Shown: positions 899 through 50,890 of the stretch, piece after piece
How the letters are laid out: the number at the start of each line of letters is the position of its first letter
Position numbering within the stretch: the first letter of the stretch is position 1
Source of the DNA: Mycobacterium sp. UM_CSW
GTDB taxonomy: Bacteria; Actinomycetota; Actinomycetes; Mycobacteriales; Mycobacteriaceae
DNA length: 64,000 bases
Direction of reading: 5' to 3'
Assembly (NCBI RefSeq): GCF_000455205.1
Contig: NZ_AUWQ01000014.1
Coordinates: forward strand, 62,001 to 126,000
The notes under the pieces: model-generated
The model's database searches: none
What the model was told of the DNA's origin: nothing
What the model saw: only the letters and a program-made list of their open reading frames with translations
Made by a program: the position numbers and the translations under genes

Positions 899-914
899 GA
901 GAACGTCTACTCTC
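899..914. promoter_or_regulatory. Candidate island operator box 1
   Basis: GAGAACGTCTACTCTC, one mismatch from the GAGAA-N6-TTCTC pattern that recurs across the island. It sits in the 226-bp gap before the amidohydrolase at 1027. The rest of the gap shows no gene; an in-frame upward extension of the amidohydrolase is open there but lacks family similarity. The site was found by eye only. Confidence 0.4.
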
Positions 915-1026
915 GATTTGTGATAGTGGCGTTGCCGATTGCCGTTCGCGCGGTATGCCATGCACATGGCGCAGGATCTGCGAGCAGCCTTTCGGCGATC
1001 TCGACTGCTTCGCGGAAAGGAACGAC

Positions 1027-2205
1027 ATGACCGAGCCCCGTGCGTTCGAGCTTTGGGACGCCGACAACCACATGTACGAGACGATCGACGCCTACACGCG
1101 CTATCTGCCGGAGAGATACTCCGAAGCATTGCAGTTCGTCGACGTCAACGGTCGCAAAAAGCTGCAGATCCTCGGCGTCATCACCGAGACCATTCCCAAC
1201 CCCACCTACGAGGTGATTCCCACTCCCGGCGCGTGGGCCGACTACTACCGCGGGATAAACCCGGAGGGTAAGACGCTGCGGGAGCTTGCCGAGCCGATCC
1301 GCTGTCCCGACGAATTCCGGCGACCCGACCTGCGCCTGGCGTTGATGGACCGCCAGGGCATTGACGGCGCACTGATGTTCCCGACCACGGCGGGCATGCT
1401 CGAGGAACGGACCAAGGGTGACGCGGAACTCACCCATGCGGTTACCCACGCCTTCAACCGCTGGCTGCTTGACGACTGGACGTTCAACTTCAAGGACCGC
1501 ATCTTCGCGGTTCCGGCGATCTCACTGAACGATCCTGCGAAGGGCGTCGCAGAACTCCAGTGGTGCCTGGAAAACGGGGCGAAGACGGTGCTGATCCGAC
1601 CGGCGCCCGTACCGCGGGAAGACGGAACGTCCCGCTCGCCGGCGCTACCCGAGTTCGACGACTTCTGGCGGCTGATTGAGTCATCGGGTATCTCGGTCCA
1701 GATGCACAACTCCGACTCCGGTTACGACCGCTATCTCTCAGACTGGGAGGGCGGTAACGAGTTCCAGGGCTTCCAGCTGACGAAGTTTCGTGGCTTCATC
1801 TATGAGGAGAGCCGCCACATCTTCGACACGCTGGCGGCGTTTATCGCGCACGGAGTGTTCGAGCGGTTTCCGGGCCTGCGCATCGGCGTGGTCGAGAACG
1901 GCGGGTCTTGGGCGAATCGTCTGATGGATGCGTTCGACCGGGTGTACCGCAAGAAACCGCGCGAATTCAGCGAGCACCCGTGCGATGTGTTCCGCAGGCA
2001 CGTGTGGGTGAACCCGTTCCACGAGGAGGACATGTCCCACCTCATCGACATTCTCGGTGCGGATCGGGTGATGTTCGGCTCGGACTACCCGCATCCCGAG
2101 GGGTTGGCGACGCCCGCGGACTTCGTCAAAGAGCTCGAAAACCTCCCGGCGACCACCGCAGCACGAGTCATGGGCGGCAACCTCAAGGAGCTGATCGGGG
2201 TCTAG
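1027..2205 (+). CDS. Amidohydrolase 2 family protein (PF04909)
   Basis: 392 residues. A metal-dependent TIM-barrel hydrolase/decarboxylase family related to ACMSD. Seen: DADNH at residues 11-15 (the D-x-H variant of the family's first metal motif), QMHNSDSGY mid-protein, and GSDYPHPEG near the C terminus carrying the expected metal/catalytic Asp. The ATG at 1027 is chosen because AAAGGA lies just upstream and similarity to the paralogue at 10691 begins there; the frame is open further up to 847. Family members hydrolyse or decarboxylate ring compounds, but the substrate here is unknown. It is a close relative of the genes at 6006 and 10691. Confidence 0.88.
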   Translation: MTEPRAFELWDADNHMYETIDAYTRYLPERYSEALQFVDVNGRKKLQILGVITETIPNPTYEVIPTPGAWADYYRGINPEGKTLRELAEPIRCPDEFRRPDLRLALMDRQGIDGALMFPTTAGMLEERTKGDAELTHAVTHAFNRWLLDDWTFNFKDRIFAVPAISLNDPAKGVAELQWCLENGAKTVLIRPAPVPREDGTSRSPALPEFDDFWRLIESSGISVQMHNSDSGYDRYLSDWEGGNEFQGFQLTKFRGFIYEESRHIFDTLAAFIAHGVFERFPGLRIGVVENGGSWANRLMDAFDRVYRKKPREFSEHPCDVFRRHVWVNPFHEEDMSHLIDILGADRVMFGSDYPHPEGLATPADFVKELENLPATTAARVMGGNLKELIGV

Positions 2206-2277
2206 ACAAGATCCGTAATCAGGTGGGTCAACCACAATTCCGCTATGCGCCTTTTCGGTTTGGTCGGTGGTCTCGAG

Positions 2278-3834
2278 TCATCGGCTCCCGAACCGCGTCC
2301 TTAGTTCGGTCTTGAGCACCTTGCCGGTGAGGTTGCGGGGCAGCGCATCGACGATTTCGAGTCGTTCGGGCGTCTTGTGCTTGCTCAGCCCTCGGGCCTG
2401 GCAATGTTCGAACACCGAGGAGAGCGTCACCGCCGCGCCCGGACGCGCGACGACGACAGCGCACACCCGTTCCCCGGTGCGCTCATCGGGCACGCCGATG
2501 ACCGCGACGTCGGCCACCGCAGGGTGGCTCGCCAACACGCCCTCGATCTCGAGTGCCGAGATGTTCTCCGCGTTGCGGATGATCGCATCCTTGATGCGCC
2601 CCGTGACGACGACGTTGCCCTCGTCGTCGATGCGTCCCAGATCGCCTGTGCGAAACCACCCCTCGGCGTCGAACGCTTGGGCATCCAAGGAGGCATCGAC
2701 GTACCCGAGGAAGCATTGCGGGCCCTTGAGCCGCAGCTCCCCCTCCTCCCCGGGCATAACCTGCCGCTCGGATTCGTCGACCACTCGCACCGATACGCCT
2801 GGCACGGGCTTGCCCACGGTGTGGTCCAGCAGTTCCGGGGGGCCGTTTGGCGCTTGAGCAGTAGCGACCGGAAATTCGGTCAGGCCCCAGGAATTGGCCA
2901 CACCGTCGACCGAAAAGACCTGCCGCACTTGATGGCCCAGCTCCGCGGTGATGGGCGCACCACCGCCGACGCAGCCACGCAGATCCGGATAGAGCGGTTC
3001 GTCGCCGTGCTTGGCCTGCGCCGCCATGAAGGCGACGAAAAACGGGGTGGCACTGCCCAACAATGTCGGGCGGTGCGCAGCGATGGCGAAGGGGGTCTCA
3101 ACGGCATCGAACGCGTCGAACAGCACCAATCGCATGCCGGTGCGCAGGCCGGCAGCGAGCATGGCCGCTCCCCCGATGTGCGACACGGGAAAAGCGATCG
3201 GGTTGACGTCGCTACTGGAGGCGCCGACGATGCCGACGACGCTTGCCGAGCCGGCGATGACCGAGCGGTCGCAGTGTCGCGCGCCTTTCGGGGCCGCCGT
3301 GGTGCCCGACGAGTAGTAGATCCAGCGCGGGTCCTCAGCGGACTGCGGCGGTGGAGGCAGTGTCGCCGGATCACCTTCAGGCAGTCGAAGTGCACCGGCG
3401 ATGGGTGCATCGTGGTCGATGACCACCACAGACATGGACTGGTCACGGTTGACCTTATGCGCGAGAGCGGTGTGGTCGAAATTGCGCCACACGCCGGGAA
3501 CAATGATGACATCGGTTCCGAGTTGCGTTGTCATAAAACGCAGTTCACTCTCCCGCCATATCGGCAGAACTGGGTTTTGGACGGCACCAAGGCGCGCCAG
3601 CGCCACCATGACGACCATCGTCTCCAGCGTCGTCGGCAGTTGCCAGGACACCACCGTCCCCGCACCAATTCCCCTATGCGCCAGTGCCGCTGCACACGTC
3701 AGGGCGGATTCGCAAAGCTGTCCGCACGACAGGGTGCGCCCGTAGTCGTCGACGAGGACCACTCGATCCGGATGCTCCCGCGCCGCCGTTTCGACGAGGG
3801 ACCAGTAGGTCTGCGCGGCTGGGAGTGCGGTCAT
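2278..3834 (-). CDS. Acyl-CoA synthetase (AMP-binding, FadD/AliA-like)
   Basis: 518 residues. It activates a carboxylic acid to its CoA thioester via an acyl-adenylate. Seen: the P-loop YYSSGTTAAPKGARH, the GWFRTGDLGRID motif, the hinge region VTGRIKDAIIRNAENIS, and the C-terminal catalytic lysine region LTGKVLKTEL. The start (MTALPAAQ) is at an ATG whose first bases overlap the TGA of the upstream ACAD gene (ATGA, 3831-3834), which implies translational coupling; the frame stays open upstream but inside the neighbour. It is the last gene of a four-gene minus-strand operon: amidohydrolase, small ACAD, large ACAD, ligase. The acid substrate is unknown. Confidence 0.9.
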   Translation of the reverse strand: MTALPAAQTYWSLVETAAREHPDRVVLVDDYGRTLSCGQLCESALTCAAALAHRGIGAGTVVSWQLPTTLETMVVMVALARLGAVQNPVLPIWRESELRFMTTQLGTDVIIVPGVWRNFDHTALAHKVNRDQSMSVVVIDHDAPIAGALRLPEGDPATLPPPPQSAEDPRWIYYSSGTTAAPKGARHCDRSVIAGSASVVGIVGASSSDVNPIAFPVSHIGGAAMLAAGLRTGMRLVLFDAFDAVETPFAIAAHRPTLLGSATPFFVAFMAAQAKHGDEPLYPDLRGCVGGGAPITAELGHQVRQVFSVDGVANSWGLTEFPVATAQAPNGPPELLDHTVGKPVPGVSVRVVDESERQVMPGEEGELRLKGPQCFLGYVDASLDAQAFDAEGWFRTGDLGRIDDEGNVVVTGRIKDAIIRNAENISALEIEGVLASHPAVADVAVIGVPDERTGERVCAVVVARPGAAVTLSSVFEHCQARGLSKHKTPERLEIVDALPRNLTGKVLKTELRTRFGSR

Positions 3835-5998: not shown

Positions 5999-6005
5999 GC
6001 CGTTG

Positions 6006-7202
6006 TTAGCTGCGGGAGAGCAGCTGGTCGGCGTTGTCGCGCATGATCCGCCGCTTGGTGGCGTCGTCGAGCGGATCGAGTAGCTTGGCGAACTCGGCCG
6101 GCACGGCCAGGCCTTCCGCGTGCGGGTAATCCGAGCCCATCACCAGGCAGTCGTCGTAACCCAGGCCCGCGACGATCGCCGGGATGTCGTCCTCGGGGTA
6201 CGGCACGACGCGAACATGGCGGCGGAAGATTGCCGAGGGCCGCTCCGTGAGCTTTCCGCCGATCCACGGGCCGTTGCGGCCCATGCCGCGACTCTTGTCC
6301 ATGTGCCGGACGAAGAACGGCACCCATTCCGCCCCGTGCTCGGCGACCAGGACGTTCAGGCCCGGGAAGCGACCGAACAGGTTGTCGAAGATGAGCGCGG
6401 ACAACGTCTCCTCGATCGGGCGCTGCCCATAGATGTTCATCCACTGCCACGCCGACATGTGCCACGAGGCCGGGTCGCGGTTCTGTCCCCACGCGGGCGA
6501 GATCGCATCGAAGTACCAGAACGGCATGATGTGGAACACCAGGACGCAGCCGGCCTCCTGCAGGCGTGCATAAACGGGGTCGAAGTACGGGTCGCCGGGC
6601 GACCGGCCATAGGCCGGCCCGGTCGGCAGTAGCACGAACTTCGCCCCCTGCGCGATGATCGCCTCGGTCTCTGCGATCGCAGAATCCAAGTCGCGCAACG
6701 ACATTAGCGCTGTGGCGTAGATTTTGTCTTCGTAGTTGAAGCTCCACTCCTCATCGAACCAACGGTTGAACGAGCGGAGATTCGCATACAGTGCCGCTGT
6801 GTCGTCGACATAGTGCTCGGCGGCCAGCGCCATGCCGCTTGGATAGATGACCATGCGCTCGATGTTCTGGTCCGCCATGACGGCCAGGCGCGCCGCACGC
6901 TCGATGAATTCCGGTTGCATGGGCTGCGGCTCGTAGGACTCCTCGGGGTTGCCCGATCCCATCTGCTTGAGCATCTCCTTGAGCGAGCCGGGCCGGTAAG
7001 CGACGTCGAGACCCAGACCACCCTCGCTGTTGAAGGTGGCGACGCGATGCCCGGCAAGGATCACCTCGACGCCGTCCGCCCCGCGCACAGTGGTGATCGC
7101 CCGGTCCCTGAACTTCTCCGGCAGATAACGGGTGAACGCGTCCCGCGTCTCGTAGCAGTGGGTGTCGCAGTCAAAGATGCCGTAATCGAGTTTGGTCGTC
7201 AC
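6006..7202 (-). CDS. Amidohydrolase 2 family protein (PF04909)
   Basis: 398 residues from GTG 7202. Seen: FDCDTH at residues 10-15 (metal motif variant D-x-H), LVFHIMPFWYF mid-protein, VLVAEHGAEW, and MGSDYPHAEG near the C terminus. The start is supported by AAGGAG at 7211-7216, 8 nt upstream; the longer open frame has no family similarity. It is the first gene of the minus-strand operon that continues with two ACADs and a ligase, so the amidohydrolase product probably feeds CoA-dependent beta-oxidation (inference). Substrate unknown. Confidence 0.88.
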   Translation of the reverse strand: MTTKLDYGIFDCDTHCYETRDAFTRYLPEKFRDRAITTVRGADGVEVILAGHRVATFNSEGGLGLDVAYRPGSLKEMLKQMGSGNPEESYEPQPMQPEFIERAARLAVMADQNIERMVIYPSGMALAAEHYVDDTAALYANLRSFNRWFDEEWSFNYEDKIYATALMSLRDLDSAIAETEAIIAQGAKFVLLPTGPAYGRSPGDPYFDPVYARLQEAGCVLVFHIMPFWYFDAISPAWGQNRDPASWHMSAWQWMNIYGQRPIEETLSALIFDNLFGRFPGLNVLVAEHGAEWVPFFVRHMDKSRGMGRNGPWIGGKLTERPSAIFRRHVRVVPYPEDDIPAIVAGLGYDDCLVMGSDYPHAEGLAVPAEFAKLLDPLDDATKRRIMRDNADQLLSRS

Positions 7203-7219
7203 CGCGTTGCTCCTTAAGC

Positions 7220-7235
7220 GAGAATGTAAATTCTC
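7220..7235. promoter_or_regulatory. Candidate island operator box 2 (perfect palindrome)
   Basis: GAGAATGTAAATTCTC, a perfect GAGAA-N6-TTCTC inverted repeat in the divergent region between the amidohydrolase (7202, minus) and ACAD (7450, plus) operons. It ends exactly 15 nt before TACTATCCTG at 7251, the same spacing as in the 33.4-kb promoter. Confidence 0.55.
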
Positions 7236-7237
7236 TA

Positions 7238-7260
7238 TTTCCAGAAAACATACTATCCTG
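7238..7260 (+). promoter_or_regulatory. Candidate promoter core, TTTCC-N-GAAA then TACTATCCTG
   Basis: TTTCCAGAAA followed by TACTATCCTG. TACTAT fits the mycobacterial -10 pattern TANNNT and the upstream palindromic box would overlap the -35 position. Nearly the same sequence (3 differences in 23 nt by eye) precedes the acyl-CoA ligase at 33426. The remaining ~190 nt to the ACAD start at 7450 hold a 64-codon open frame (7269-7463) without recognisable similarity. Confidence 0.45.
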
Positions 7261-7449
7261 ATGCGGCAATGGCTATCCCGGGCTGGATGGCCGAGGCGCC
7301 TGAGCAGCACGCGGCGCCGGCTCGGCCGCGACGGCACAGAGGAGACATGGCACCTTCACAATCGCTGGCGGACAACAGGATCGGGCAGGCGGCGCTGAGC
7401 TCGAGGATTCGCCCCGATTTCGCGACACGACCGAGTCCGGGGGCCGCGC

Positions 7450-8565
7450 GTGCCCACGAGTGAGGCCGACGAGATCCGCGGCGTGGTACGCGACTACCTG
7501 ACTGCCACATCTCCCAGCGAGACCGTGCGCAAGCTGATGGCGACCGACACCGGCCACGACGAGGCGTCGTGGCGTCAGATGGCCAGCGAGCTAGGCCTGC
7601 ACGGCATCGGTGTTCCCGAGCAGTGGGGCGGCGCGGGTGCCGGCATGGCCGAACTCGCCGTGGTCTTCGAGGAAATGGGGCGCGCGCTGCTTTGCTCCCC
7701 GTTCTTCGCCACCGTGGCTCTGGCGACACAGGCCATTCTCGCCAGCGGCGACGAGGCGGCGGCCGAAGAGTTCGTCCCCGGGCTCGTTGACGGCTCTGCC
7801 ACCGCGACGCTGATCCTCAACGGCCAACTCGACGCCTGGGACCCCGCCGCCGTGACATTGCGGGCCGAGCGCCACGGTGCCGCGTACCGGATCCACGGGG
7901 AGGCACCGCTCGTGATCGATGGTCATACCGCGGACGTCATCCTCGTCGCGGCCAGCACCGACGCCGGCATCTCGCTGCTGGCGATCCGCGCCGGCGCAGA
8001 GGCGGTCCGCCGCACACCACTGGCCGGCCTCGACCGCACCCGCAAGGTGGCCCACCTGGGGTTCGACGGGGCACCAGCGGGGTTGATCGGAGCGGACGGC
8101 GCGGCCGCGGGGTTTCTGGCGCGTGCCGCGGACCTCGCCGTCGTGGCGCTGGCCGCCGAACAGGTCGGCGCCGCCCAGCGCTGCCTCGACATGGCCGTCG
8201 ACTACGCCAAGAACCGGATTCAGTTCGGCCGGCCGATCGGCAGCTTCCAGGCGATCAAGCATCGGTGCGCCGACATGCTGGTCCAGGTCGAAGGTGCTCG
8301 TTCGGCCGAGGAACATGCGGCGGACGCGGCTGGCACCGATGACCTGCCGACAGCGGCGTCCGTCGCGAAAATGGTCTGTTCGGAAGCCTTCCTGCAGGTT
8401 GCGCTCGACAACATGCGCATCCACGGCGGCATCGGGTTCACCTGGGAACACGATGCCCACCTGTTCGTACGGCGCGCCAAAGCCAGCCAATTGATGTTCG
8501 GCGACCCCGACTACCACGCTCAACGCCTGGCCACACTCGTCTCCGGAATGAAAGGACCCTCGTGA
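7450..8565 (+). CDS. Acyl-CoA dehydrogenase (FadE28-like)
   Basis: 371 residues from GTG 7450. FAD-dependent acyl-CoA dehydrogenase fold: ELGLHGIGVPEQWGGAGAG in the N-terminal domain, IQFGRPIGSFQAIKHRCADM and MRIHGGIGFTWEHDAHL in the C-terminal helical domain, as in the small-subunit type. No partner ACAD lies beside it on this strand; the pair at 3831-5998 is divergent from it. Its stop overlaps the next gene's GTG (GTGA), so it is coupled to an F420-type oxidoreductase. The leader is unusually long (about 190 nt after the candidate promoter). Confidence 0.87.
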   Translation: MPTSEADEIRGVVRDYLTATSPSETVRKLMATDTGHDEASWRQMASELGLHGIGVPEQWGGAGAGMAELAVVFEEMGRALLCSPFFATVALATQAILASGDEAAAEEFVPGLVDGSATATLILNGQLDAWDPAAVTLRAERHGAAYRIHGEAPLVIDGHTADVILVAASTDAGISLLAIRAGAEAVRRTPLAGLDRTRKVAHLGFDGAPAGLIGADGAAAGFLARAADLAVVALAAEQVGAAQRCLDMAVDYAKNRIQFGRPIGSFQAIKHRCADMLVQVEGARSAEEHAADAAGTDDLPTAASVAKMVCSEAFLQVALDNMRIHGGIGFTWEHDAHLFVRRAKASQLMFGDPDYHAQRLATLVSGMKGPS

Positions 8566-9464: not shown

Positions 9465-9470
9465 TTGGCC

Positions 9471-9908: not shown

Positions 9909-9942
9909 CGGGCCTCCTCGTGGAAATTGAATCGTCACACAC

Positions 9943-9958
9943 GATAACGTGTATTCTC
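9943..9958. promoter_or_regulatory. Candidate operator box 3, abutting a start codon
   Basis: GATAACGTGTATTCTC, which read on the other strand is GAGAA-N6-TTATC. It directly precedes ATG 9959. TAACGT inside it fits a -10 hexamer placed 8 nt before the ATG, so the gene at 9959 may be transcribed leaderless from within the box. A very similar 16-mer occurs at 40319-40334 on the opposite strand. Confidence 0.5.
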
Positions 9959-10588: not shown

Positions 10589-10632
10589 CCTGTCGCTCGC
10601 GCCACACGATGTGGATGTTGTGCAGCAATAGT

Positions 10633-10647
10633 GATAACGTCGTTCTC
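10633..10647. promoter_or_regulatory. Candidate operator box 4 (15-nt variant)
   Basis: GATAACGTCGTTCTC, the same half-sites as box 3 but with a spacer one base shorter. It lies 43 nt upstream of ATG 10691. TAACGT could be the -10 hexamer. Confidence 0.4.
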
Positions 10648-10690
10648 GATTAGCGTAAATGCTCATATTCGCTGCTCAGGAGGAAGTCCC

Positions 10691-11884: not shown

Positions 11885-12360
11885 CCCAGGCGCCCACGTC
11901 TCCGAAGGAGTACGACGGGATCGCCGATTTCGAGGCGCATGTCGGCGAGCACCTCGGCTACAGCGACTGGCTTCGGGTCACCCAAAAGGAGATCGATCTG
12001 TTCGCCGAGGCGACCGGTGACCATCAGTGGATTCACGTCGACCCCGAGAAAGCGGCGGCCGGTCCCTACGGCAAGACCATCGCACACGGTTACTTGACAC
12101 TGTCGCTGGTGCCCGTTCTCGTAAAACAGATCTACCGGGTGACCGGGCTGTCGATGCAGGTGAACTACGGCTCCGACAAGCTCCGGTTCCCCGCGCCGGT
12201 ACCGGTCGACTCCCGCATCCGGGCCGGAGCCGAGCTACTCAAGGTCGAGCGCAGCGACCGCGGGGGGCGGGCCACGGTTCGTGTCACCGTCGAGGTCGAG
12301 GGAAACGACCGACCGGCTTGCGTCGTCGACACGATCGCAGCGATGGTTGACGACGGCTAG
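11881..12360 (+). CDS. MaoC-type (R)-specific enoyl-CoA hydratase
   Basis: 159 residues. Single hot-dog domain. The hydratase-2 signature is seen as FAEATGDHQWIHVDPEKAA, with the catalytic Asp at residue 47 and His at 52, followed by GKTIAHGYLTLSLVP. It would add water to a trans-2-enoyl-CoA. The length is normal for a one-domain MaoC protein. It overlaps the amidohydrolase stop by 4 nt and shares the 4-base CTAG end with the convergent CoA-transferase gene (12357-12360). Confidence 0.9.
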   Translation: MTQAPTSPKEYDGIADFEAHVGEHLGYSDWLRVTQKEIDLFAEATGDHQWIHVDPEKAAAGPYGKTIAHGYLTLSLVPVLVKQIYRVTGLSMQVNYGSDKLRFPAPVPVDSRIRAGAELLKVERSDRGGRATVRVTVEVEGNDRPACVVDTIAAMVDDG

Positions 12361-14759
12361 GCGTTGAGCAGGCGTTGCCCGATCACTTGTTGATCGCGCA
12401 GCGCGGCGATCTCCGCGTCGGAAAGTCCAAGTGCCCCCAGCACCTCGGTGTTGTGCTGCCCCAGCGTCGGAGCTGCGGTCCTGTGATGGTGTGCCGGACC
12501 CGGCGAAATCTGAAATGGCCAGCCCGGAAACCTCTGTCGACCAGTAATCGGGTGAACCAGATCCTGATAGTAACCACGCGCATCGAGCTGCTCGACCCCA
12601 TACATCTCGTCGGCTGCAAGTAATCGCGCCGCTGGGACGCCATGCCGGACAAGCGTCGCCACCAGCTCCTCGGCGGGTTGCGTGCACGTCCAACTCGCGA
12701 CAATCTCGTCGAACTGGTCATGATTATGCCGGCGAGCTTCTGCCGTCACGAATTTCGGGTCGCCTCGCAGATCAGCCCGGCCAAGGGCGCCCAGCATTGC
12801 AACCCAATCGGCGTCATGACGCACCGACAGCGCGATCCACTCGCCAGCGATACTGGTCGGATAGACACCCTGGGCGTATTCGCGGTGGCGGTTTCCCTCT
12901 CGTGGTCGCACCGCGCCCGTCAGCGAGTACTCGATCACAGGCTCGGCGGTCACTGCCGCGCCTACCTCGATCTGCGCGACCTCGATGAGCTGGCCCTCAC
13001 CGGTGGACCGCCTGTGCTCGAGCGCGGCCAGCAGCGCCACGCCCGCGTGTACACCGGCGATCGGATCGGCGGGCCCCTGCAGATTGCACGGCGGGCCGTC
13101 TGGGTAACCGGTCATGGCCGACATACCGGACACCTGTTCGATGTTTAGCGCCCAGCCCACATAGTCTCGCCACGGCCCCTCCAGCCCGAATCCGGGCATC
13201 CGCACCATAATCAGTGCAGGATTGATCTTCGCGAGCGAGTCGTAATCGAGTCCGAACTGCTCAACGACGCGCGGGGAGAAGTTCTCCACCACCACATCGG
13301 CTTCTGCGGCCAGCCGCAGAGCCAACTCGCGGCCGGCGGTCGAAGTGAGGTCAAGGGTGATGTCGCGTTTGTTGAGATTGGTTCCCTGCCAAAGCGGTCC
13401 GCGCTCATACCAGTCGTCCCCCTCACGGAGTAGAGAGCCGGAGTAGCGGTGGCCGTCGGGGCGCTGAATGGATTCGACCTTGATCACGTCAGCCCCGAAC
13501 GCGCCGAGGTAGCACGTCAGATATGCCCCCGCCCAGAAGGTGCTCAAGTCGAACACCTTCAATCCGGCGAAGGGTAAGACGTCCGGCGTCCTCTCGACGC
13601 CGCTGTCTCGGTGACGCGCACCGCGCTCGCTCCAGGCCGCCTGCGAGTCTTTTCCGCGGACCGGGGCAGGAAGTGGCGAAGGAACCGGCGTCTTCGAAAA
13701 CCGAAACGGGGCTCCGGGTCTGGTGAATCGCCATGCGTCAGCCACCACCTCGACGAAAAATCCTCGCTCGGCGTACTGCGGACAGTCCAGTACGGTATCG
13801 CCTTCGGTGACCGGCGCCGCGGGTATCCGCATGGCCTGACTCAGGTCGACCAGGTCGGCAACGGTCATCGCATCGAAAAACGGCTGCGCCTTGGCGAAAA
13901 ACTCATCGCGCTCGGGCCCGCCGAGCATGATCGCAATCTGGTGCTCGCCGAACTCGGGTAACCCGACCATGGCGCACACGTCGAGCCAGTGCTGGCCGGT
14001 CAGGCAGTTGATTCCGATCCAGCCATCCGCGGCACGCACGATACCCAACATCGGTGCCGCCTTCGAATTAGTCGGCAAACCAAGGCTTTTCAGGCGGGCT
14101 GCCATCAGCATGGGATAGGGCAGCGTCGACAGGAGTGTCTCCAACATCGAGACGTCCACCTCGACCGGCCGGTTCGTTCCGGCCTCGGCGATCCGCAGCG
14201 CCGTCAGCGCCCCTAAGGCCGCATACCCGCCGGCTATGTACTCCGGAATCCGTGCACCGGCCTGCACCGGCGCCCTCCCGGGGTCGCGCGCATTGACCCA
14301 GCCCCCAGCCGCCTGCAGGGTCAATGGAGTCGTCACCCGGTCACGCAGCGGCCCGTCCTGACCGAAGCTCGATATCCTGACCACGACGAGCTCCGGGTTG
14401 ATCCGGCCAAGAGCGTCCACGTCCAGACCCCAGTCCCGACGCTCGGGCGCGCCGGCGTCCAGGTCTTCGATAAACACATCCGCCTGGGCGATGAGCTCGT
14501 GAAGGTCCGCGAGCTCGCTATCACGTGCCAAGTTGACTGTGGCGCCGGACTTTCCGGCGTTGAGATACGCGAAAAGCCCGCTTCGTTCCGGATCAGGATC
14601 GGCCGACGGAAACGGACCCCACAGGCGCAACGGGTCACCCGATGGGGGCTCGACCTTGCAGACGTCGGCGCCAAGGTCGACGAGCAACTTGGCGCAGTAC
14701 GGACCCGCAATGTCGGAGGCCAGCTCAACAACACGCAAACCCGCAAGGGGCCCGTTCAC
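12357..14759 (-). CDS. Double-domain CaiB/BaiF (class III) CoA-transferase
   Basis: 800 residues from GTG 14759, twice the family length: two complete CaiB units fused head to tail. Unit 1 begins LAGLRVVELASDIAGPYCAK, unit 2 begins FAGLKVFDLSTFWAGAYLTC at about residue 410. The family forms a covalent acyl-Asp intermediate; unit 2 keeps an Asp in GPADPIAGVHAG, whereas unit 1 has Glu in ARIPEYIAGGYAALG. This recalls DddD-type fusions, in which one half is catalytic. The GTG overlaps the ALDH stop by 4 nt (GTGA), so the two are one operon. The frame extends upstream, but only inside the ALDH gene. Confidence 0.88.
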   Translation of the reverse strand: MNGPLAGLRVVELASDIAGPYCAKLLVDLGADVCKVEPPSGDPLRLWGPFPSADPDPERSGLFAYLNAGKSGATVNLARDSELADLHELIAQADVFIEDLDAGAPERRDWGLDVDALGRINPELVVVRISSFGQDGPLRDRVTTPLTLQAAGGWVNARDPGRAPVQAGARIPEYIAGGYAALGALTALRIAEAGTNRPVEVDVSMLETLLSTLPYPMLMAARLKSLGLPTNSKAAPMLGIVRAADGWIGINCLTGQHWLDVCAMVGLPEFGEHQIAIMLGGPERDEFFAKAQPFFDAMTVADLVDLSQAMRIPAAPVTEGDTVLDCPQYAERGFFVEVVADAWRFTRPGAPFRFSKTPVPSPLPAPVRGKDSQAAWSERGARHRDSGVERTPDVLPFAGLKVFDLSTFWAGAYLTCYLGAFGADVIKVESIQRPDGHRYSGSLLREGDDWYERGPLWQGTNLNKRDITLDLTSTAGRELALRLAAEADVVVENFSPRVVEQFGLDYDSLAKINPALIMVRMPGFGLEGPWRDYVGWALNIEQVSGMSAMTGYPDGPPCNLQGPADPIAGVHAGVALLAALEHRRSTGEGQLIEVAQIEVGAAVTAEPVIEYSLTGAVRPREGNRHREYAQGVYPTSIAGEWIALSVRHDADWVAMLGALGRADLRGDPKFVTAEARRHNHDQFDEIVASWTCTQPAEELVATLVRHGVPAARLLAADEMYGVEQLDARGYYQDLVHPITGRQRFPGWPFQISPGPAHHHRTAAPTLGQHNTEVLGALGLSDAEIAALRDQQVIGQRLLNA

Positions 14760-16386: not shown

Positions 16387-16450
16387 CCTTGGAAACGGAC
16401 ATTCTTTCTTTATCTGTCCGAACAGCTCTCAACGTCGAGGAAGGCCTACG

Positions 16451-20966: not shown

Positions 20967-21415
20967 CCTCCACCGTCGACCGCACCACCACACGGGCGTG
21001 GAACTCCATCAATGTGGGCGACGAAGTCACCCCGATGGACGTACCGGTGACCACCACGCTGATCGTCGCTGGCGCCATCGCATCCCGTGACTACATGCCG
21101 GTACACCACGACCGTGACTTTGCCAATTCGCAAGGCTCCAAAGATATTTTCCTCAACATCTTGACGACCAACGGCCTCTGCGTGAAGTTCTTGCACGACT
21201 GGGCGGGCCCCGAGGCGATGATCAAAAAGCTGTCCATTCGACTCGGCGTACCGGCCTACCCGAATGACCCGCTGCGATTTACGGGATCGGTGACCGGCAA
21301 GTCGTCGGCCGACGGTGAAGGGCTGATCGAGGTCACGTTCAAGGGCACCAACAGCCTGGGCGACCATGTCTCGGGAACCGCGGTGCTCAGCCTCCTTCAA
21401 GGTGTCAATGCATGA
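20963..21415 (+). CDS. MaoC-like hydratase subunit (ChsH1-like)
   Basis: 150 residues. Short hot-dog protein with the hydratase-2 residues in IASRDYMPVHHDRDFA: Asp43 and His48, five residues apart as in active MaoC enzymes. The long ORF beginning at 20879 is only an upstream extension; ATG 20963 overlaps the ACAD stop. In the cholesterol pathway ChsH1 supplies catalytic residues and ChsH2 helps bind the bulky substrate. Stop overlaps the next ATG (ATGA). Confidence 0.88.
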   Translation: MTSTVDRTTTRAWNSINVGDEVTPMDVPVTTTLIVAGAIASRDYMPVHHDRDFANSQGSKDIFLNILTTNGLCVKFLHDWAGPEAMIKKLSIRLGVPAYPNDPLRFTGSVTGKSSADGEGLIEVTFKGTNSLGDHVSGTAVLSLLQGVNA

Positions 21416-22581: not shown

Positions 22582-22604
22582 GTTCGCCGATGCAAGGGAG
22601 CCTG

Positions 22605-23201
22605 ATGACCCGCGCGACCGCCGTTGACACCCGCGCGGTGCTCATCTCTGCCGCCTTCACCTGCTTCCGAACGCACGGGCTGCGAAAGACGACGATCGTC
22701 GACATCGCGCGGGCGGCGGAGGTGTCGAGGAGCACGTTCTACGAGTACTTCCGGGACAAGGAAACGATTGTCGAGGCCTGTGCGGAGGCGGCGTCGCAGG
22801 GCTTCTACCGCAAGCTGGCCAGGGCAATCGAGCGCGACGGCGGCGGCACCCTCGAGGACAAACTGGTCCGGGCAGGCGTTTTCGTCACCCAGGCCCGCCG
22901 ACTCGTGGAATCGGAGTTGTATTTCGACCAAGAACAAGTCGACCTGATGTTGACGAAGAATGCGTCGACGCTGCTCCGCGAGTGTGGCGAATTTCTCGCG
23001 CCGTACATCTCGGCGGCGAGGCTGACCGGTGAGGTGCGCAGCGACCTCGACATTCGGTCGGCCTCGGAGTGGTTTGCGCGAATCTTGTTCTCGTTGTTCA
23101 CAACCCCGTCGCCCTATCACGACGCTAACGACGTCGCGGTAGCCGACTTCGTCCGCTCGTATGTCGTGCGGGGATTCGTCCATGACCGACGCAAGAGGTA
23201 G
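22605..23201 (+). CDS. TetR-family transcriptional regulator
   Basis: 198 residues. N-terminal helix-turn-helix TTIVDIARAAEVSRSTFYEYF followed by a ligand-binding helical domain. ATG 22605 is preferred because AGGGAG lies 5 nt upstream; an in-frame ATG at 22590 adds five residues. It is co-directional with the igr-like operon and likely its local regulator, possibly sensing an acyl-CoA as many FadE-linked TetRs do (inference). No separate promoter is visible in the 23-bp gap. Confidence 0.88.
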   Translation: MTRATAVDTRAVLISAAFTCFRTHGLRKTTIVDIARAAEVSRSTFYEYFRDKETIVEACAEAASQGFYRKLARAIERDGGGTLEDKLVRAGVFVTQARRLVESELYFDQEQVDLMLTKNASTLLRECGEFLAPYISAARLTGEVRSDLDIRSASEWFARILFSLFTTPSPYHDANDVAVADFVRSYVVRGFVHDRRKR

Positions 23202-23210
23202 CAGCGCCCC

Positions 23211-24083
23211 TCATGGCACTCTGTGTCGTCCCACTCGGTCGATCTCGCGCAGCAGTGGTTGCGCCGTAGCCCGGATTTCACTCATCGTCATAACGCGTAG
23301 CGGGTGGAACCCGAGAATGAGTCGCACATGGCCTGTCTCGTCCAAAACGGGCGCCGAGATTGTGGCAACCGGGAGCTCATCGTGTGCGCTGTCGCCGGAT
23401 AGCAAGTTCGCCGAAATGAATTCGACGCGCAGTTGGTCGATAACGGAGCGCACATTGTGGGGCACAGTCTCGTTAGACAACGTTTCGATCGCATGAGCCG
23501 CCTGCGCGAGCGCCGGGGTCATCCAATCGACGTCATAACCGCGGTCGCGCGTCTGAGCCAACACCGTGCGAAGGCGCTCTCCCAGCGACGTGTCTCCGGC
23601 CGCGCCGCGCTGAATCCACGATTCCTGTTCGCTTGGGATATCCCATGCGGCGCAGGCGATCCCGAACGGCGGGGCATACGGGATGCGATCGAGTGAAGCG
23701 ACCCGTTTGGTAGCGCCGTCGGGAGTTTCGAACGCGGTGATCACCAGTTCGTCTCCAGTGCGCTCGACTACCGAGGCCGGCGCACCGGTCGCCTCAGCGA
23801 GACGGCGGATGGCTTGGCGAGCGACAGCAAGAAGTGGGCGCGCCGCTTCGAACCTCTCCGCTACGAGGGCCACAGTGGGGCCAAGGTCGAACTTCTTGGA
23901 AATAGGATCCCGGGTCGCCCAACCGCGGTCGCACAGCGTCTTGAGTATGGAATGCGCCGTGGCCTGAGAAAGGCCGAGGTCGCGAGCGACGTCGGAGAAG
24001 CGGTGCCCGCCACCCTCCGGCTTGCTCAGCAACTCAACGACATCGAGGACACGCTCGGCCGGTGCTGAAGTGACCCCGCGCAT
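23211..24083 (-). CDS. IclR-family transcriptional regulator
   Basis: 290 residues. Winged helix: FSDVARDLGLSQATAHSIL-KTLCDRGWATRD, then the IclR effector domain beginning LLAVARQAIRRLAEATG. Start ATG 24083 gives a typical IclR opening (APAERVLDVVELLSKP). IclR proteins usually control neighbouring catabolic operons and bind short palindromes. The divergent region to the dehydrogenase at 24169 contains a perfect 16-bp inverted repeat (24138-24153) and a variant of the recurring island box. It is therefore a candidate for the island regulator, as are the two TetRs. Confidence 0.88.
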   Translation of the reverse strand: MRGVTSAPAERVLDVVELLSKPEGGGHRFSDVARDLGLSQATAHSILKTLCDRGWATRDPISKKFDLGPTVALVAERFEAARPLLAVARQAIRRLAEATGAPASVVERTGDELVITAFETPDGATKRVASLDRIPYAPPFGIACAAWDIPSEQESWIQRGAAGDTSLGERLRTVLAQTRDRGYDVDWMTPALAQAAHAIETLSNETVPHNVRSVIDQLRVEFISANLLSGDSAHDELPVATISAPVLDETGHVRLILGFHPLRVMTMSEIRATAQPLLREIDRVGRHRVP

Positions 24084-24127: not shown

Positions 24128-24141
24128 GATAAATAGTTCTC
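24128..24141. promoter_or_regulatory. Candidate operator box 5 (short variant)
   Basis: GATAAATAGTTCTC: half-sites GATAA and TTCTC with only 4 nt between. It lies in the IclR/dehydrogenase divergent region. Weak because the spacer is shortened. Confidence 0.3.
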
Positions 24142-24153
24142 TAATAGTAGAGA
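24138..24153. promoter_or_regulatory. Candidate IclR operator, perfect inverted repeat
   Basis: TCTCTA-ATAG-TAGAGA, 6-bp arms with a 4-nt spacer, 15 bp before the GTG of the dehydrogenase gene and ~55 bp from the IclR start. The position fits autoregulation and control of the divergent operon. Confidence 0.4.
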
Positions 24154-32725: not shown

Positions 32726-32741
32726 GAGAATGTCAGTTTCC
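32726..32741. promoter_or_regulatory. Candidate operator box 7
   Basis: GAGAATGTCAGTTTCC, ~70 bp upstream of the CoA-transferase start (minus strand). The right half is TTTCC instead of TTCTC, as in box 9. Confidence 0.38.
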
Positions 32742-33379: not shown

Positions 33380-33395
33380 GAGAACCGGTGTTACC
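33380..33395. promoter_or_regulatory. Candidate operator box 8
   Basis: GAGAACCGGTGTTACC, a GAGAA-N6-TTxxC variant. It ends 15 nt before TACTATCCTG, exactly as box 2 does at 7.2 kb. Confidence 0.42.
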
Positions 33396-35516: not shown

Positions 35517-35532
35517 GGAAACATTGATTCTC
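35517..35532. promoter_or_regulatory. Candidate operator box 9
   Basis: Minus-strand reading GAGAATCAATGTTTCC, almost the same as box 7. It lies between the divergent VOC (35473) and SDR (35586) genes. TAGATT at 35540 could be the -10 hexamer of the SDR. Confidence 0.42.
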
Positions 35533-38271: not shown

Positions 38272-38287
38272 TAGAATACTCATTCTC
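38272..38287. promoter_or_regulatory. Candidate operator box 10a
   Basis: TAGAATACTCATTCTC, one base from the GAGAA-N6-TTCTC pattern, 7 nt upstream of the minus-strand SDR start. The minus-strand TATTCT inside it fits a -10 hexamer 8 nt before the ATG. Confidence 0.48.
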
Positions 38288-38294
38288 GGCCAAA

Positions 38295-38310
38295 GATAAA
38301 GGAAGTTCTC
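38295..38310. promoter_or_regulatory. Candidate operator box 10b
   Basis: GATAAAGGAAGTTCTC, 30 bp upstream of GTG 38341. TAGCGT at 38329-38334, 6 nt before the GTG, fits a -10 hexamer and would give a leaderless transcript. Two boxes in one 76-bp divergent region suggest one per direction. Confidence 0.45.
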
Positions 38311-39198: not shown

Positions 39199-40263
39199 TC
39201 ACTTGTAGAAGGGTCCAGGCTTGCCTGCTTCCTCGAGATGCCCATAAGGGTCGTACACCTTGACATTCGGGTACGGATTCTGCTCGTACGCGGGCGCGGA
39301 CAATCCCGCGGCCCGCAGCGCGGACAGCGCCGCCAGCGGCACGCTGAACGAAAGCAGCCCCACCGCAACCGACACGAGGAGCTGGCGCGTCAAGGTGACG
39401 GTGTTGTCGCGCCCCCGCGCCGGAACCCAGCGCGCAATGCGGTTGATCAGGACCAGCCCGCCGTGCTCGTCGCGGACACACATCGCGGCGACCATCCCGA
39501 AGATGATCGAGTCGTATACCGCCATGATCAGTGGGAAATAGAGATGGCCGACTCGCAATACCGGCCCGACCGCTTCGGTGTAGAAGAAAATGCCGAAACG
39601 CATCCAGGTGAACTGGATCAGCCCATTGATTGGGATTGCGACCAGTGTTGCGCCGAGGAACACCGCCACCAGTCGATGGCGGGCGAACCAACTCGTGCGC
39701 CGCATCAGCGGGTCGACAAATCGGTCATGCAGCTTCAGGAAAGCTAAACCGTTGAGGAGGTAGTACGCGGCGTATCCGCCGAGAAAGGCCAGCGCGGGCT
39801 CCAGGTCCGGCGAAATGTTCACGTACGGCCAGGACAGCGGAAAGTGCAGCATGCGCGGGTCGAAGATCGCGAATGTCGCCCAGTTGGCCAAGGGATCCAG
39901 CGCCCCAGTGATCAGGCCGGCGAAAGCGATCACCACCGTCCAGTGCACCTTGCGCTGTCGCACCGAGAGCCACACCAGCGTTCCGATCAGGCCGATCGCC
40001 ATTGGAATTGAGCTGAGACCAACTGCCAACGGCCAGTTGTCGAAGCCGAGGAACGGCGGATACGGTGCCGGACCCGGGTTTGGGTTGGTGATCCGGGGAT
40101 TGTCGTGAGTACCCGATTGGATGTTCGCAACGGTCACGATTGCGAAGACCAGGTAGGCCACGATAAACAGCCCCCACCCAGCCCTGCACAACGAACGCCC
40201 GCCGCCCGGCCCAACCGGCTCGATGAAAGCCGAATCGGTACCGTAGTCAACGGGGTTCGTCAT
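39199..40263 (-). CDS. AveC-like (spirocyclase AveC family) membrane protein
   Basis: 354 residues, ATG 40263. Integral membrane protein with about seven hydrophobic segments, for example LFIVAYLVFAIVTVANI, VGLSSIPMAIGLIGTLVWL, FLGGYAAYYLLNGLAFL and LLVSVAVGLLSFSVPLAAL. Between them lie conserved NWATFAIFDPRMLHFP-type and NPYPNVKVYDPYG stretches. AveC of avermectin biosynthesis is a bifunctional dehydratase/spirocyclase; mycobacterial homologues are uncharacterised. Its presence in a catabolic cluster suggests a membrane step on a hydrophobic polyketide- or terpenoid-like molecule (inference). The family call rests on my recollection of its sequence pattern. Confidence 0.7.
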   Translation of the reverse strand: MTNPVDYGTDSAFIEPVGPGGGRSLCRAGWGLFIVAYLVFAIVTVANIQSGTHDNPRITNPNPGPAPYPPFLGFDNWPLAVGLSSIPMAIGLIGTLVWLSVRQRKVHWTVVIAFAGLITGALDPLANWATFAIFDPRMLHFPLSWPYVNISPDLEPALAFLGGYAAYYLLNGLAFLKLHDRFVDPLMRRTSWFARHRLVAVFLGATLVAIPINGLIQFTWMRFGIFFYTEAVGPVLRVGHLYFPLIMAVYDSIIFGMVAAMCVRDEHGGLVLINRIARWVPARGRDNTVTLTRQLLVSVAVGLLSFSVPLAALSALRAAGLSAPAYEQNPYPNVKVYDPYGHLEEAGKPGPFYK

Positions 40264-40318
40264 GTGGCAGCCCGACAATCCCTTCTTCCACGTCCCGAGA
40301 TAACACGTCCGACCGGTT

Positions 40319-40334
40319 GAGAATAGACGTTATC
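40319..40334. promoter_or_regulatory. Candidate operator box 11
   Basis: GAGAATAGACGTTATC; read toward the AveC-like gene it is GATAACGTCTATTCTC, 14 of 16 bases the same as box 3 (9943). It lies 55 bp from the ATG at 40263. Confidence 0.5.
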
Positions 40335-41214: not shown

Positions 41215-41235
41215 GTCGCCTCCTGTTTCCACGAC

Positions 41236-41251: not shown

Positions 41252-41259
41252 ACGCTATC

Positions 41260-41275
41260 GATAATGTTAATTCTC
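41260..41275. promoter_or_regulatory. Candidate operator box 12
   Basis: GATAATGTTAATTCTC, one base from the palindromic pattern, between divergent SDR genes (41214 minus, 41328 plus). A poorer second copy, GAGAATCGCGGTAACC, follows at 41282-41297. Confidence 0.48.
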
Positions 41276-41327
41276 ATATGAGAGAATCGCGGTAACCCTA
41301 ATCATCAATTAGTCAAAGAAGCGGGAA

Positions 41328-42086: not shown

Positions 42087-42120
42087 CGCTTCATCGGCAA
42101 CTCTACGAAAGGACAGGTCA

Positions 42121-42924: not shown

Positions 42925-42928
42925 CGGA

Positions 42929-43010
42929 GGTGAGGACGCCCGTTGAGAACGTGACCCCACGCAACGTGAGAGTAAAGATTACCGGCGCGGCTAGAGTAAG
43001 CGTCCTCACC
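42929..43010. repeat. 11-bp inverted repeat flanking the copy-3 promoter region
   Basis: GGTGAGGACGC at 42929-42939 and its exact reverse complement GCGTCCTCACC at 43000-43010, separated by 60 bp. It lies in the gap between the SDR stop and the TTG start at 43034. It could be a long-range hairpin (terminator or attenuator) or paired protein sites. A weak island box (GAGAGTAAAGATTACC, 42968-42983) lies inside. Confidence 0.5.
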
Positions 43011-43033
43011 AGGGTTTGAAGGGAGTCCAGAAA

Positions 43034-44131: not shown

Positions 44132-44181
44132 CGCGTGGAACCGACTGTGCTCGCTGTTCCGCGGTGCGCTCCGGCGGACTT

Positions 44182-45246: not shown

Positions 45247-45258
45247 ATCAGGCGAACC

Positions 45259-46509: not shown

Positions 46510-46531
46510 GTGCCACCTCGCGTACGCTCGA

Positions 46532-46576
46532 TCAACCTACATGCTGTCGGTTGCAAACGTACATCATGTAGGTTGA
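46532..46576. promoter_or_regulatory. Double TetR-type operator between P450 and copy 5
   Basis: TCAACCTACATG (46532-46543) and its exact reverse complement CATGTAGGTTGA (46565-46576), 21 bp apart. Each arm also pairs with a nearer imperfect half: CAACC...GGTTG spans 46533-46553, and CAAAC...GGTTG spans 46554-46575. So two ~21-bp operators may lie side by side. It is centred in the 116-bp divergent region and would control both genes. Confidence 0.55.
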
Positions 46577-46625
46577 ACGAACCAGAACCCCGGCAAATTG
46601 CGAAAGCACAACCTGGAGAGTTTGA

Positions 46626-47699
46626 TTGGCTATTCGAGTAGCGCAATGGGCGACGGGCGCGGTTGGTCGCGCCGCGCTGCAGGAACTCATCGAGAATCCT
46701 CATTATCAACTGGTCGGTGTGCTGGTGTACGACCCGGCAAAAACCGGCCTTGACGCCGGCGCGCTGTGCGGGCTGCCGCCGACAACGGGCGTGATCGCCA
46801 CGGCGGACAAGGACGACATCATCGCGCTGGGCGCCGATGTCGTCGTGCACGCGGCCAGCAAGGCCCACGCGATCGAGACGAATGCCGAGGACATCTGCCG
46901 GCTACTCGCGGCGGGCAGCACGGTCATCACGACGACGTCGTACAACCATTTGCCCACCTACGGCGCGGAAACCGAGGCGGCGTTCGTCGAAGCCTGCCGA
47001 CGGGGCGGGTCGCGGTTCCACGCCGCCGGCGAGAACCCCGGTTTCATGTTCGAGCGCCTGGTCGCCACGGTGACGGGGTTGAGCAAGACGATCGACCGGA
47101 TCGACCTCTATGAAGCCACCGACGTTTCGGCCGTCGACAGCCGGCCGATGCTCGTCGACCTGATGGGCATGGGCAGGCCGCCCGAGGACGTCAGCGTCGA
47201 TTCCCCGATCATCAAAAAGCTCGACATGGCCTACCGCCAGGCGCTCAACGCCACGGCCGACGTCCTGGGGATCAGCCTGTCGCACATCGACGTGACGGTC
47301 GACGCGACCACGCTGCCCCATGACATCGAGGTCCTCGCGGGGACGATCGAGGCGGGAACGGTTGTCGGGCAGCGATTCTCGTGGACCGGTCACTGGTCGG
47401 GGCGCCCGCTGCTGGCCATCCACGAGGAGTGGGTACTCACCCGCGACCTTCCCCAGTGGAATATGGCACCGCTGGCGCCCGGCGCGAAGGCGCCGCTCAT
47501 CCGCGCCGTCATCAAAGGCCAGCCGAACTTCGAACTGCAGCTCGACGTCGGATCCGACGCTCCAGCGCCGGCGGGCCAGCACGCCATCCCAGGTCACCTG
47601 ATGATCGCGATGGGCGCGGTTCGCGCCATCCCCTACGTGCTTGCCCAGCCGCCCGGCATCGTGACCGCGCCGGTGTTCGGTGCGATCCAACTAGCGTGA
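46626..47699 (+). CDS. DAP-dehydrogenase-like oxidoreductase, copy 5
   Basis: 357 residues from TTG 46626 with GGAGAG just upstream. VAQWATGAVGRAALQELIE, QLVGVLVYDPAKTGLDAGAL, HAAGENPGFMFERL, and MGAVRAIPYVLAQPPGIVT. Divergent from the P450/copy-4 operon and probably co-regulated with it through the double operator. Ends overlapping the convergent solute-binding-protein gene by 9 bp. Confidence 0.85.
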   Translation: MAIRVAQWATGAVGRAALQELIENPHYQLVGVLVYDPAKTGLDAGALCGLPPTTGVIATADKDDIIALGADVVVHAASKAHAIETNAEDICRLLAAGSTVITTTSYNHLPTYGAETEAAFVEACRRGGSRFHAAGENPGFMFERLVATVTGLSKTIDRIDLYEATDVSAVDSRPMLVDLMGMGRPPEDVSVDSPIIKKLDMAYRQALNATADVLGISLSHIDVTVDATTLPHDIEVLAGTIEAGTVVGQRFSWTGHWSGRPLLAIHEEWVLTRDLPQWNMAPLAPGAKAPLIRAVIKGQPNFELQLDVGSDAPAPAGQHAIPGHLMIAMGAVRAIPYVLAQPPGIVTAPVFGAIQLA

Positions 47700-48836: not shown

Positions 48837-48974
48837 AGCGGCAACATACAGGATGAAGGTTGTCGCGACCGAGTGCATCCCGAACCCCGCGGGTCGGAAA
48901 CGGTGATTTACGAAAAATGCATATCCGACCTCTGTCGGTGTACCTTTCGAGTGGGCCCGCCCAAAGGAGACGCA

Positions 48975-50099: not shown

Positions 50100-50122
50100 A
50101 GAAAACAACCGGCCGGGCAACT

Positions 50123-50143
50123 CAACATTCAACCTGAATGTTG
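50123..50143. promoter_or_regulatory. TetR operator (perfect palindrome)
   Basis: CAACATTCA, a 3-nt spacer (ACC), then TGAATGTTG: perfect 9-bp arms over 21 bp, ending 14 bp before ATG 50158 of the TetR gene. Typical position and size for TetR autorepression. The outer CAAC/GTTG also ends the 46533-46553 site. Confidence 0.65.
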
Positions 50144-50157
50144 CTACGATCGCCGGC

Positions 50158-50790
50158 ATGGCGAAGCGCGGTGGGGCGGCCGACGAACGGAGGGCCAGGG
50201 GGGAGCAGACTCGTCTGGACCTGATCGACGCGGGGCGCGAACTCTTCGTGGAATACGGATTTTTCAACACGAGCATCAGCGACATCGTGACCAAGTCGGG
50301 CGTCGGGACTCGGGGTGCGTTCTACCACCACTTCAAGGACAAGGCCGAGCTGTTCCGCGCCGTGTTCGAAGACGTCGAGAACGACCTCACACTTCGGTCC
50401 ATCGCCGCTCCCCCGCCGGGGACGGACCCCTGGGAGCGGCTCACGAGGGGTCTACACGGGTTCCTGGAAGCGGCACAGGAGCCCGCGGTGCAGCGGGTGA
50501 TACTCGTCGACGGACCGGTGGTACTGGGCTGGCAAACCCTGCGCGAAATCCAGGAGGGCAACAGCATCGCCCTTATCAATGAGGTGGTCCGCGAGGCGAT
50601 TGCTGAAGGAATCATCGACGATCAGCCCGTCGGGGAGCTGACGCACATGATCGTCGCCGCGCTCGAGGAAGCCTCGCTTCTGGTGGCGCATGCCGCAAAC
50701 CCCAGCAGGGCGCGCCGGCGGGCCGGCAAAGTCCTCGACCGTCTCCTGCTCTCATTTGCCGTCGAGCCCCAAAAAGTCCTGCGGCGGTGA
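50158..50790 (+). CDS. TetR-family transcriptional regulator
   Basis: 210 residues, ATG 50158. N-terminal HTH: ELFVEYGFFNTSISDIVTKSG, VGTRGAFYHHFKDKAELF. Helical ligand domain with GLHGFLEAAQEPAVQRVIL-VDGPVVLGW, which is common in TetRs near catabolic genes. It almost certainly binds the palindrome at 50123-50143 and represses itself. Likely targets are copy 6 upstream and the 50911-56048 operon downstream (inference). Confidence 0.9.
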   Translation: MAKRGGAADERRARGEQTRLDLIDAGRELFVEYGFFNTSISDIVTKSGVGTRGAFYHHFKDKAELFRAVFEDVENDLTLRSIAAPPPGTDPWERLTRGLHGFLEAAQEPAVQRVILVDGPVVLGWQTLREIQEGNSIALINEVVREAIAEGIIDDQPVGELTHMIVAALEEASLLVAHAANPSRARRRAGKVLDRLLLSFAVEPQKVLRR

Positions 50791-50828
50791 TCCGTGCGGC
50801 CAATGCTTCGCGGCGCCTTGCTGCCGTC

Positions 50829-50848
50829 ATGGAAATGCTTATTTCCAT
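50829..50848. promoter_or_regulatory. Palindrome ATGGAAAT-GCTT-ATTTCCAT
   Basis: Perfect 8-bp arms with a 4-nt spacer in the 120-bp gap after the TetR gene, ~62 bp before ATG 50911. It contains GGAAA-N6-TTTCC, which resembles the TTTCC half-sites of boxes 7 and 9. It may also end the TetR transcript. Confidence 0.45.
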
Positions 50849-50874
50849 AAATCGAAATAGCGCCTCTGCTTTCT

Positions 50875-50890
50875 GATAATCTCGTTTTCA
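50875..50890. promoter_or_regulatory. Candidate operator box 13 (weak)
   Basis: GATAATCTCGTTTTCA, GATAA-N6 with a poor right half, 20 bp before ATG 50911. GATAAT may simply be the -10 hexamer. Confidence 0.28.

Follow-up and report, generated by a model that had tools for sequence, protein, structure and literature searches.

A palindromic promoter element and its proposed TetR-family regulator in a catabolic island of Mycobacterium sp. UM_CSW

Which protein reads the palindrome that recurs in the promoters of a mycobacterial gene island, and is this palindrome more than a chance repeat? The question is raised by a 64,000-nucleotide stretch of Mycobacterium sp. UM_CSW (contig NZ_AUWQ01000014.1, here C14, positions 62001-126000), called the window below, which covers part of an island of about 80 kb; negative positions lie left of the window start. 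A sequence-only reading had described 15 copies of GAGAA-N6-TTCTC or near variants as the mark of an undescribed regulon, and had named as candidate regulators an IclR-type protein at 23211 and two TetR-family proteins at 22605 (open reading frame, ORF, from 22590; P0002) and 50158 (P0003). We find that the element is genuine and that none of these three candidates fits; another TetR-family protein, P0001, encoded left of the window, is very probably its regulator and, judging from sequence, an autoregulated repressor. ORFs were called; Pfam was searched with 50 proteins from the window and 10 from the region to its left, NCBIfam with ten window proteins.

The palindromic element and its paired arrangement

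With at most one mismatch, GAGAA-N6-TTCTC occurs nine times in the window versus 1.2 copies expected, and none of 100 shuffles reached nine; with at most two mismatches, the 20 window matches compare with 17.2 +/- 4.1 in shuffles, so that the loose form is not enriched. The consensus is GRDAAY-N3/4-RTTHYC, a dyad of 15 or 16 bp, and when the half-sites GRDAAY and RTTHYC were scanned with spacers N0 to N12 in five islands, enrichment was seen at N3 and N4 only. A refined pattern, GRDAAYNNNNRTTHYC, matches the 6.39-Mb genome at 24 distinct sites, 11 of which fall inside the 81-kb island (1.3% of the genome by length); the reversed control of this pattern has four sites genome-wide. Two of the 11 strict island sites, 46692 in the window, which the sequence-only reading does not name, and -15082 to its left, lie in coding frames. 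They were first taken as conserved operators, -15082 even as a seed of the position weight matrix (PWM), and were then rejected and counted as chance, since the sequence at each encodes ENPH(F/Y).

The PWM was built from fixed seeds. At a score of at least 13, it finds 18 matches in the island (ten intergenic, seven within 150 nt of an ORF start and one deep in coding sequence), none in the remaining 53 kb of C14, and seven in a 400-kb background made of 20 stretches of 20 kb from the same genome; without the -15082 seed, these numbers become 19, none and six. Across the islands of five species, the PWM gave 83 matches, versus 1 to 26 for 20 column-permuted palindromic matrices. An iterated low-threshold PWM was dropped in favour of the fixed seeds, as it drifted to 152 matches versus 43-72 in 20 Markov controls.

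The sites were then checked by alignment in up to five species, wherever the region exists, the island being syntenic in the genomes G116, G134 and G118, and also in G001 as far as its contig reaches. The dyad is kept while its flanks vary, and the changes obey the half-site rule, as exemplified by GATAAT, GAGAAT and GGAAAT at 41260. Conservation in four relatives, the concentration in the island and the co-occurrence described below across 148 genomes back the idea of an island-specific regulon. Twelve of the 15 proposed sites stood up: those at 7220, 9943, 10633 (in the 15-nt form), 32726, 33380, 35517, 38272, 38295 (altered in G001), 40319 and 41260 are good, and two weaker ones were accepted, namely 899, present in two of the five species, and 50875, a 15-mer with a strict fit in this genome and G118 and with changes in the three other species. 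Three were lost: 24128 belongs to a different, overlapping palindrome, an IclR-type operator at 24138-24153; 42968 occurs in this genome only; and 27522, indeed a perfect dyad, is confined to this genome apart from a partial copy in G116. Overlooked at that stage were 50831 (GGAAAY-N4-ATTTCC, in all five species), 10655 and 16391, the last of which contradicts the statement that no copy precedes the igr-like operon. At a PWM score of at least 13, the housekeeping part (56-64 kb) is indeed free of copies; one match of 11.5 lies at 60791.

A paired arrangement was sought at 16 promoters by averaging over two to five species and searching distances of 10-60 bp (101 tried) for the highest-scoring second dyad. 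At 11 of them, the best second copy, usually the weaker one, lies 22-23 bp away (binomial probability 6e-14), with a mean partner score of 4.6-17.3 bits in ten of these 11; the best distances at the other five are 23.5 (-14483), 44.5 (50831), 16.5 (-19648), 49 (16391) and 16 bp (35517). In other genomes, 30 of 56 P0001 promoters have their best second dyad at 21.5, 22.0 or 23.0 bp (10, 16 and 4, respectively). Since 22-23 bp is about two helical turns, two dimers could sit side by side, and this is what the paired dyads suggest.

P0001 as the proposed regulator

P0001 carries an N-terminal TetR DNA-binding domain (PF00440, E 1.4e-7), and its helix-turn-helix region is nearly invariant across 29 sequences. 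The number of GRDAAYNNNNATTCTC matches in 148 genomes of the genus was compared with the presence of orthologues of each candidate. The 35 genomes with a P0001 orthologue of at least 70% identity hold 7-17 matches each, versus 0-4 in the other 113, and the reversed control pattern behaves no differently in the two groups (13 matches in the 35 genomes, 35 in the 113). For the separation of motif-rich from motif-poor genomes, the area under the curve (AUC) is 1.0 for P0001, 0.971 for P0002 and 0.884 for the IclR protein. Three genomes with only a P0001 paralogue of 61-62% identity have 3, 0 and 2 matches. In the six motif-rich genomes for which all matches were mapped, many lie on the contig or stretch holding P0001; some lie away from it in G133, G079 and G043, and in G030 and G043 they are spread over several contigs. 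In the genome collection, the closest named P0001 is that of Mycobacterium sp. 1245805.9 (98% identity), the other close named matches coming from Mycobacterium, Mycolicibacterium and related mycobacteria, with one from Williamsia (66%) and one from Dietzia (30%). An order-level search (E<=1e-60) found P0001 in nine of 397 genomes, all of the same genus, and a PDB sequence search returned distant TetR-family matches only, such as EthR. Two P0001 orthologue copies each were observed in G071 and G073.

The promoter of P0001 itself carries the element. A site with a PWM score of at least 12 lies within 400 nt upstream at 56 of 59 P0001 loci from named genomes, versus 82 of 993 random 400-nt windows from the same loci, and the count stays at 56 of 59 after the PWM was rebuilt without the -15082 seed. 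At 32 loci the site stands 22-31 nt before the start, and at the Williamsia locus (66% identity) at -78. Upstream of P0001 paralogues of 61-66% identity, a sister palindrome, GAGAG-N5-TTCTC, was found in four of six cases and nowhere in the 400-kb background, which ties the P0001 protein family to this half-site. The four paralogue loci concerned (L187, L188, L189 and L190) offer a naturally occurring example of operator shift.

Several observations weigh against P0001 and the paired operator. The partner at 40319 averages -0.5 and is no real match, no second copy stands 22-23 bp from 16391 or 35517, and the set of 16 promoters was selected by eye once the PWM scan had been made. Both the autoregulation test and the pairing test are slightly circular, as the 38272/38295 pair and this genome's P0001 promoter site were among the fixed seeds. 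The per-genome counts include up to two coding-frame matches (the orthologues of -15082 and 46692), so that the worst-case margin is 5 versus 4. P0001 travels with the island, and its co-occurrence with the motif is therefore partly co-inheritance; P0003 orthologues (at least 62%) are found in all 35 P0001-bearing genomes and additionally in G045, where one PWM match of 12.9 lies near P0003. As the genomes are related and thus not independent, no probability is attached to the co-occurrence. A good upstream site is missing at L110, L115 and L138 (Dietzia, distant), two of the three being close orthologues, and the P0001 promoter of this genome has a single good site (14.4), which lies 250 nt from the start and is not paired at 22-23 bp. 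A weak GAGAA-motif match (12.0) overlaps the IclR dyad in three of the 12 upstream regions of the IclR gene. Finally, what was computed is the motif itself, how it is conserved, spaced and paired, its co-occurrence with P0001 and its presence in the P0001 promoter; direct binding by P0001, repression, cooperativity, ligand and substrate are what we infer from these.

Other candidate regulators and a possible mechanism

The distribution of P0003 would allow this protein to bind the GAGAA dyad, and it is the predicted operators in their own promoters that decide between P0001 and P0003. Upstream regions of P0003 were taken from 19 of the 36 genomes with an orthologue of at least 62%, and all 19 carry a different dyad, CAACMTWCA-N3-TGNAKGTTG (CAACATTCA-N3-TGAATGTTG), 14 exactly and five with one mismatch, but no GAGAA-motif match of at least 12 (best 10.7). 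With at most one mismatch, this dyad is confined genome-wide to three places, all in the island and near P0003; with three mismatches, it is found at four places in each of five islands. Moreover, G045 has P0003 at 78% and no strict-motif match, its 12.9 match being a PWM one. We therefore regard P0003 as very unlikely to be the reader of the GAGAA dyad. The case of P0002 appears weaker by a shade: its orthologues occur in 32 of the 35 motif-rich genomes and the conserved site 16391 precedes its operon, but at 67% or more it is absent from G007, G133 and G043, which keep the motif, and G090, devoid of motif matches, has it at 70%. In addition, its operon resembles, in layout only, that of KstR3, described as a local operon regulator in Mycolicibacterium neoaurum (PMC10398937).

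The IclR protein sits in the island and is conserved in four close relatives, but its orthologue (at least 56%) is missing from 18 of the 35 motif-rich genomes, where matches of about 50% are taken as a paralogue that this genome also has, on contig C27. Its promoter holds another dyad, TCTC[TG]AnTAT[TC]nGAGA, at all 12 loci (in two of them with a single base changed), for which no further copy was found elsewhere on the contig at two mismatches; a plasmid search for the protein gave matches below 60% only. It is the least probable of the regulators considered. A regulator encoded elsewhere in the genome, with P0001 merely one of its targets, is improbable as well, if slightly less so than any of the above: it would need the distribution of P0001 and would have to account for the sister palindrome before the P0001 paralogues.

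With P0001 as regulator, a dimer would bind the dyad through GRDAAY half-sites separated by three or four central bases, and two adjacent dimers facing approximately the same side of the DNA would hold off RNA polymerase. P0001 would be released, and some 16 promoters induced together, by a compound derived from the island, perhaps a steroid- or terpenoid-like substrate in CoA-thioester form, while the embedded P0003 and IclR proteins would control a few promoters via their own palindromes. TetR-family proteins are usually repressors released by a pathway compound; together with this behaviour, the location of the sites near start codons, mostly in divergent gaps and also in the regulator's own promoter, suggests such a role, and P0001 may instead act as an activator. 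No consistent offset was found between the operators and -10-like elements (best 6 of 146), hence promoter overlap is not claimed. A broader scheme, to which we give slightly less than an even chance, would consist of layered autoregulated repressors with separate palindrome codes. P0001 would use an operator of about 38 bp whose two dyads are offset by two helical turns and may each take a 15- or 16-bp form, with graded second sites tuning the approximately 16 promoters cooperatively, and P0003 would use the same 22-bp register with another code at 46533/46555.

Table 1. Regulator genes and predicted operators of the island (window coordinates; negative values lie left of the window)
Feature	Position	Context	Conservation	Second copy or remark
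P0001, TetR-family protein	-20687 to -19899 (C14:41313-42101), minus	~20 kb left of window		proposed regulator
Operator	-24363	divergent promoter	four species	15-mer at -24340
Operator	-19648	between P0001 and divergent amidohydrolase	four species	
Operator	-14483	divergent aldolase/thiolase promoter	four species	-14460
Operator	-9504		four species	-9526
Operator	-3061		this genome and G118 only	
Operator	899..914		G000 and G118 only	weak, 22.5 bp downstream
Operator	7220..7235	between amidohydrolase (-) and acyl-CoA dehydrogenase (+)	5/5 species	weak, at 7242
Operator	9943..9958	directly before ATG of isochorismatase-type gene	5/5 species	very weak here
15-mer GATAACGTCGTTCTC	10633..10670	before amidohydrolase		weaker 16-mer GTAAATGCTCATATTC (10655), centres 22.5 bp apart
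Probable operator GGAAACGGACATTCTT	16391..16406	before CYP125-type / igr-like operon	identical in 5/5	none at 22-23 bp
Operator	32726..32741	before CoA-transferase gene		23 bp upstream
Operator	33380..33395	divergent SnoaL-type / acyl-CoA ligase promoter		weak, 22.5 bp downstream
Operator	35517..35532	divergent promoter, gene at 35033 / SDR gene	4 species	
Paired operators 38272 and 38295	38272..38310	divergent SDR genes		23 bp apart
Operator	40319..40334	before 39199-40278 (-)	4 species	position at 22.5 bp scores <0
Operator	41260..41275	divergent SDR promoter	4 species	22 bp downstream
16-mer GGAAATGCTTATTTCC	50831..50889	before amidohydrolase operon	5 species (16-mer)	15-mer GATAATCTCGTTTTC at 50875, ~44 bp apart
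Motif-like match	46692..46707	inside coding frame (ENPHY)		counted as chance
P0002, TetR	22590..23201, +	end of igr-like operon		not the motif's regulator by co-occurrence
IclR-type regulator	23211..24083, -			own operator at 24138-24153
IclR-type operator TCTCTAATAGTAGAGA	24138..24153	IclR / alcohol dehydrogenase divergent promoter		
P0003, TetR-family protein	50158..50790, +			likely regulator of a second, small promoter set
Two P0003-type operators	46533..46575	divergent P450 / DAP_DH-type promoter	5 species	22 bp apart
P0003-type operator	48842..48862	probably upstream of true start of DAP_DH-type gene		ORF called from 48531, family match from residue 166
P0003-type operator	50123..50143	P0003's own promoter		

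Known systems and the content of the island

The proposed system resembles KstR and KstR2 in that a TetR regulator lies inside the steroid-type cluster that it presumably controls, is autoregulated, and has palindromes in divergent promoters. The motifs are unlike, as the sequence-only reading had noted: by eye, the AAC-N2-GTT core of the KstR motif is absent from the aligned sites. Likewise, these sites show no CAAG/CTTG core and leave the 14-bp KstR2 sequence AnCAAGnnCTTGnT unmatched (PMC3068626). KstR2 has three sites and they lie 22-82 bp from most starts, whereas the present 15/16-bp GRDAAY dyad is found at about 16 promoters and is mostly paired at 22-23 bp. KstR3 of M. neoaurum is a TetR regulator of a thiolase/DUF35/reductase operon for the steroid side chain, a layout like that of the operon ending in P0002; its deletion raised the expression of four clustered genes, and the word 'motif' is absent from the main text of the article (PMC10398937). 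From the published layout, KstR3 is likely kin of P0002 rather than of P0001.

Two TetR-family dimers per operator, a prediction in the present case, are also found with QacR, CprB, CgmR and Ms6564. In these dimer-of-dimers regulators, the two dimers share 22-32 bp, and in CprB they are placed on opposite sides (PMC4150764). QacR- and CprB-type dimers thus overlap on one stretch, whereas here two separate palindromes have their centres 22-23 bp apart. A different palindrome, TCCCGGT[C/G]ACCGGGA, is predicted in a Nocardioides lithocholate study (PMC7593942). Among the titles and abstract openings listed from the open-access literature, we recognised no description of the motif or of its regulator, and the regulon is therefore taken as new, of known TetR type and with an unusual paired operator. 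P0001 and the motif are present in 35 of 148 sampled genomes of the genus. P0001 is likely the master regulator of the island, and the regulator, its operators and its inducer would offer a direct handle for finding the island's substrate. KstR gave such a handle for cholesterol. The operators paired at 22-23 bp and the paralogues with a sister motif further provide a natural test of how TetR DNA specificity changes.

As for this substrate, acyl-CoA dehydrogenases, SDRs, P450s, amidohydrolases, DAP_DH-type proteins and CoA transferases are numerous in the island, which also has the igr-like operon. The solved structures nearest to the P450 at 16451 include CYP125, CYP124 and CYP142 types, which are mycobacterial lipid/steroid P450s; the thiolase at 21412 comes closest to the lipid-transfer protein 6ok1 (E 2e-169). 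The island thus resembles those for steroid or terpenoid catabolism, and we infer a substrate of this kind. Genes for a dihydrodipicolinate reductase, an amidohydrolase, an OB-fold protein and an SDR, listed in a paper on M. avium subspecies (DBO90_RS12280-12630; PMC7876471), may come from a related island. Within the window, a single ORF of 862 residues at 12357-14945 holds two CoA-transferase family III stretches. Left of it, at C14 window -15300 to -14470 (L007 ~6700-7530), the ORF called at -15297..-14188 is in the wrong frame; the real gene lies on the minus strand and encodes a protein (VGPSDLTAEMG...) that looks like an aldolase.

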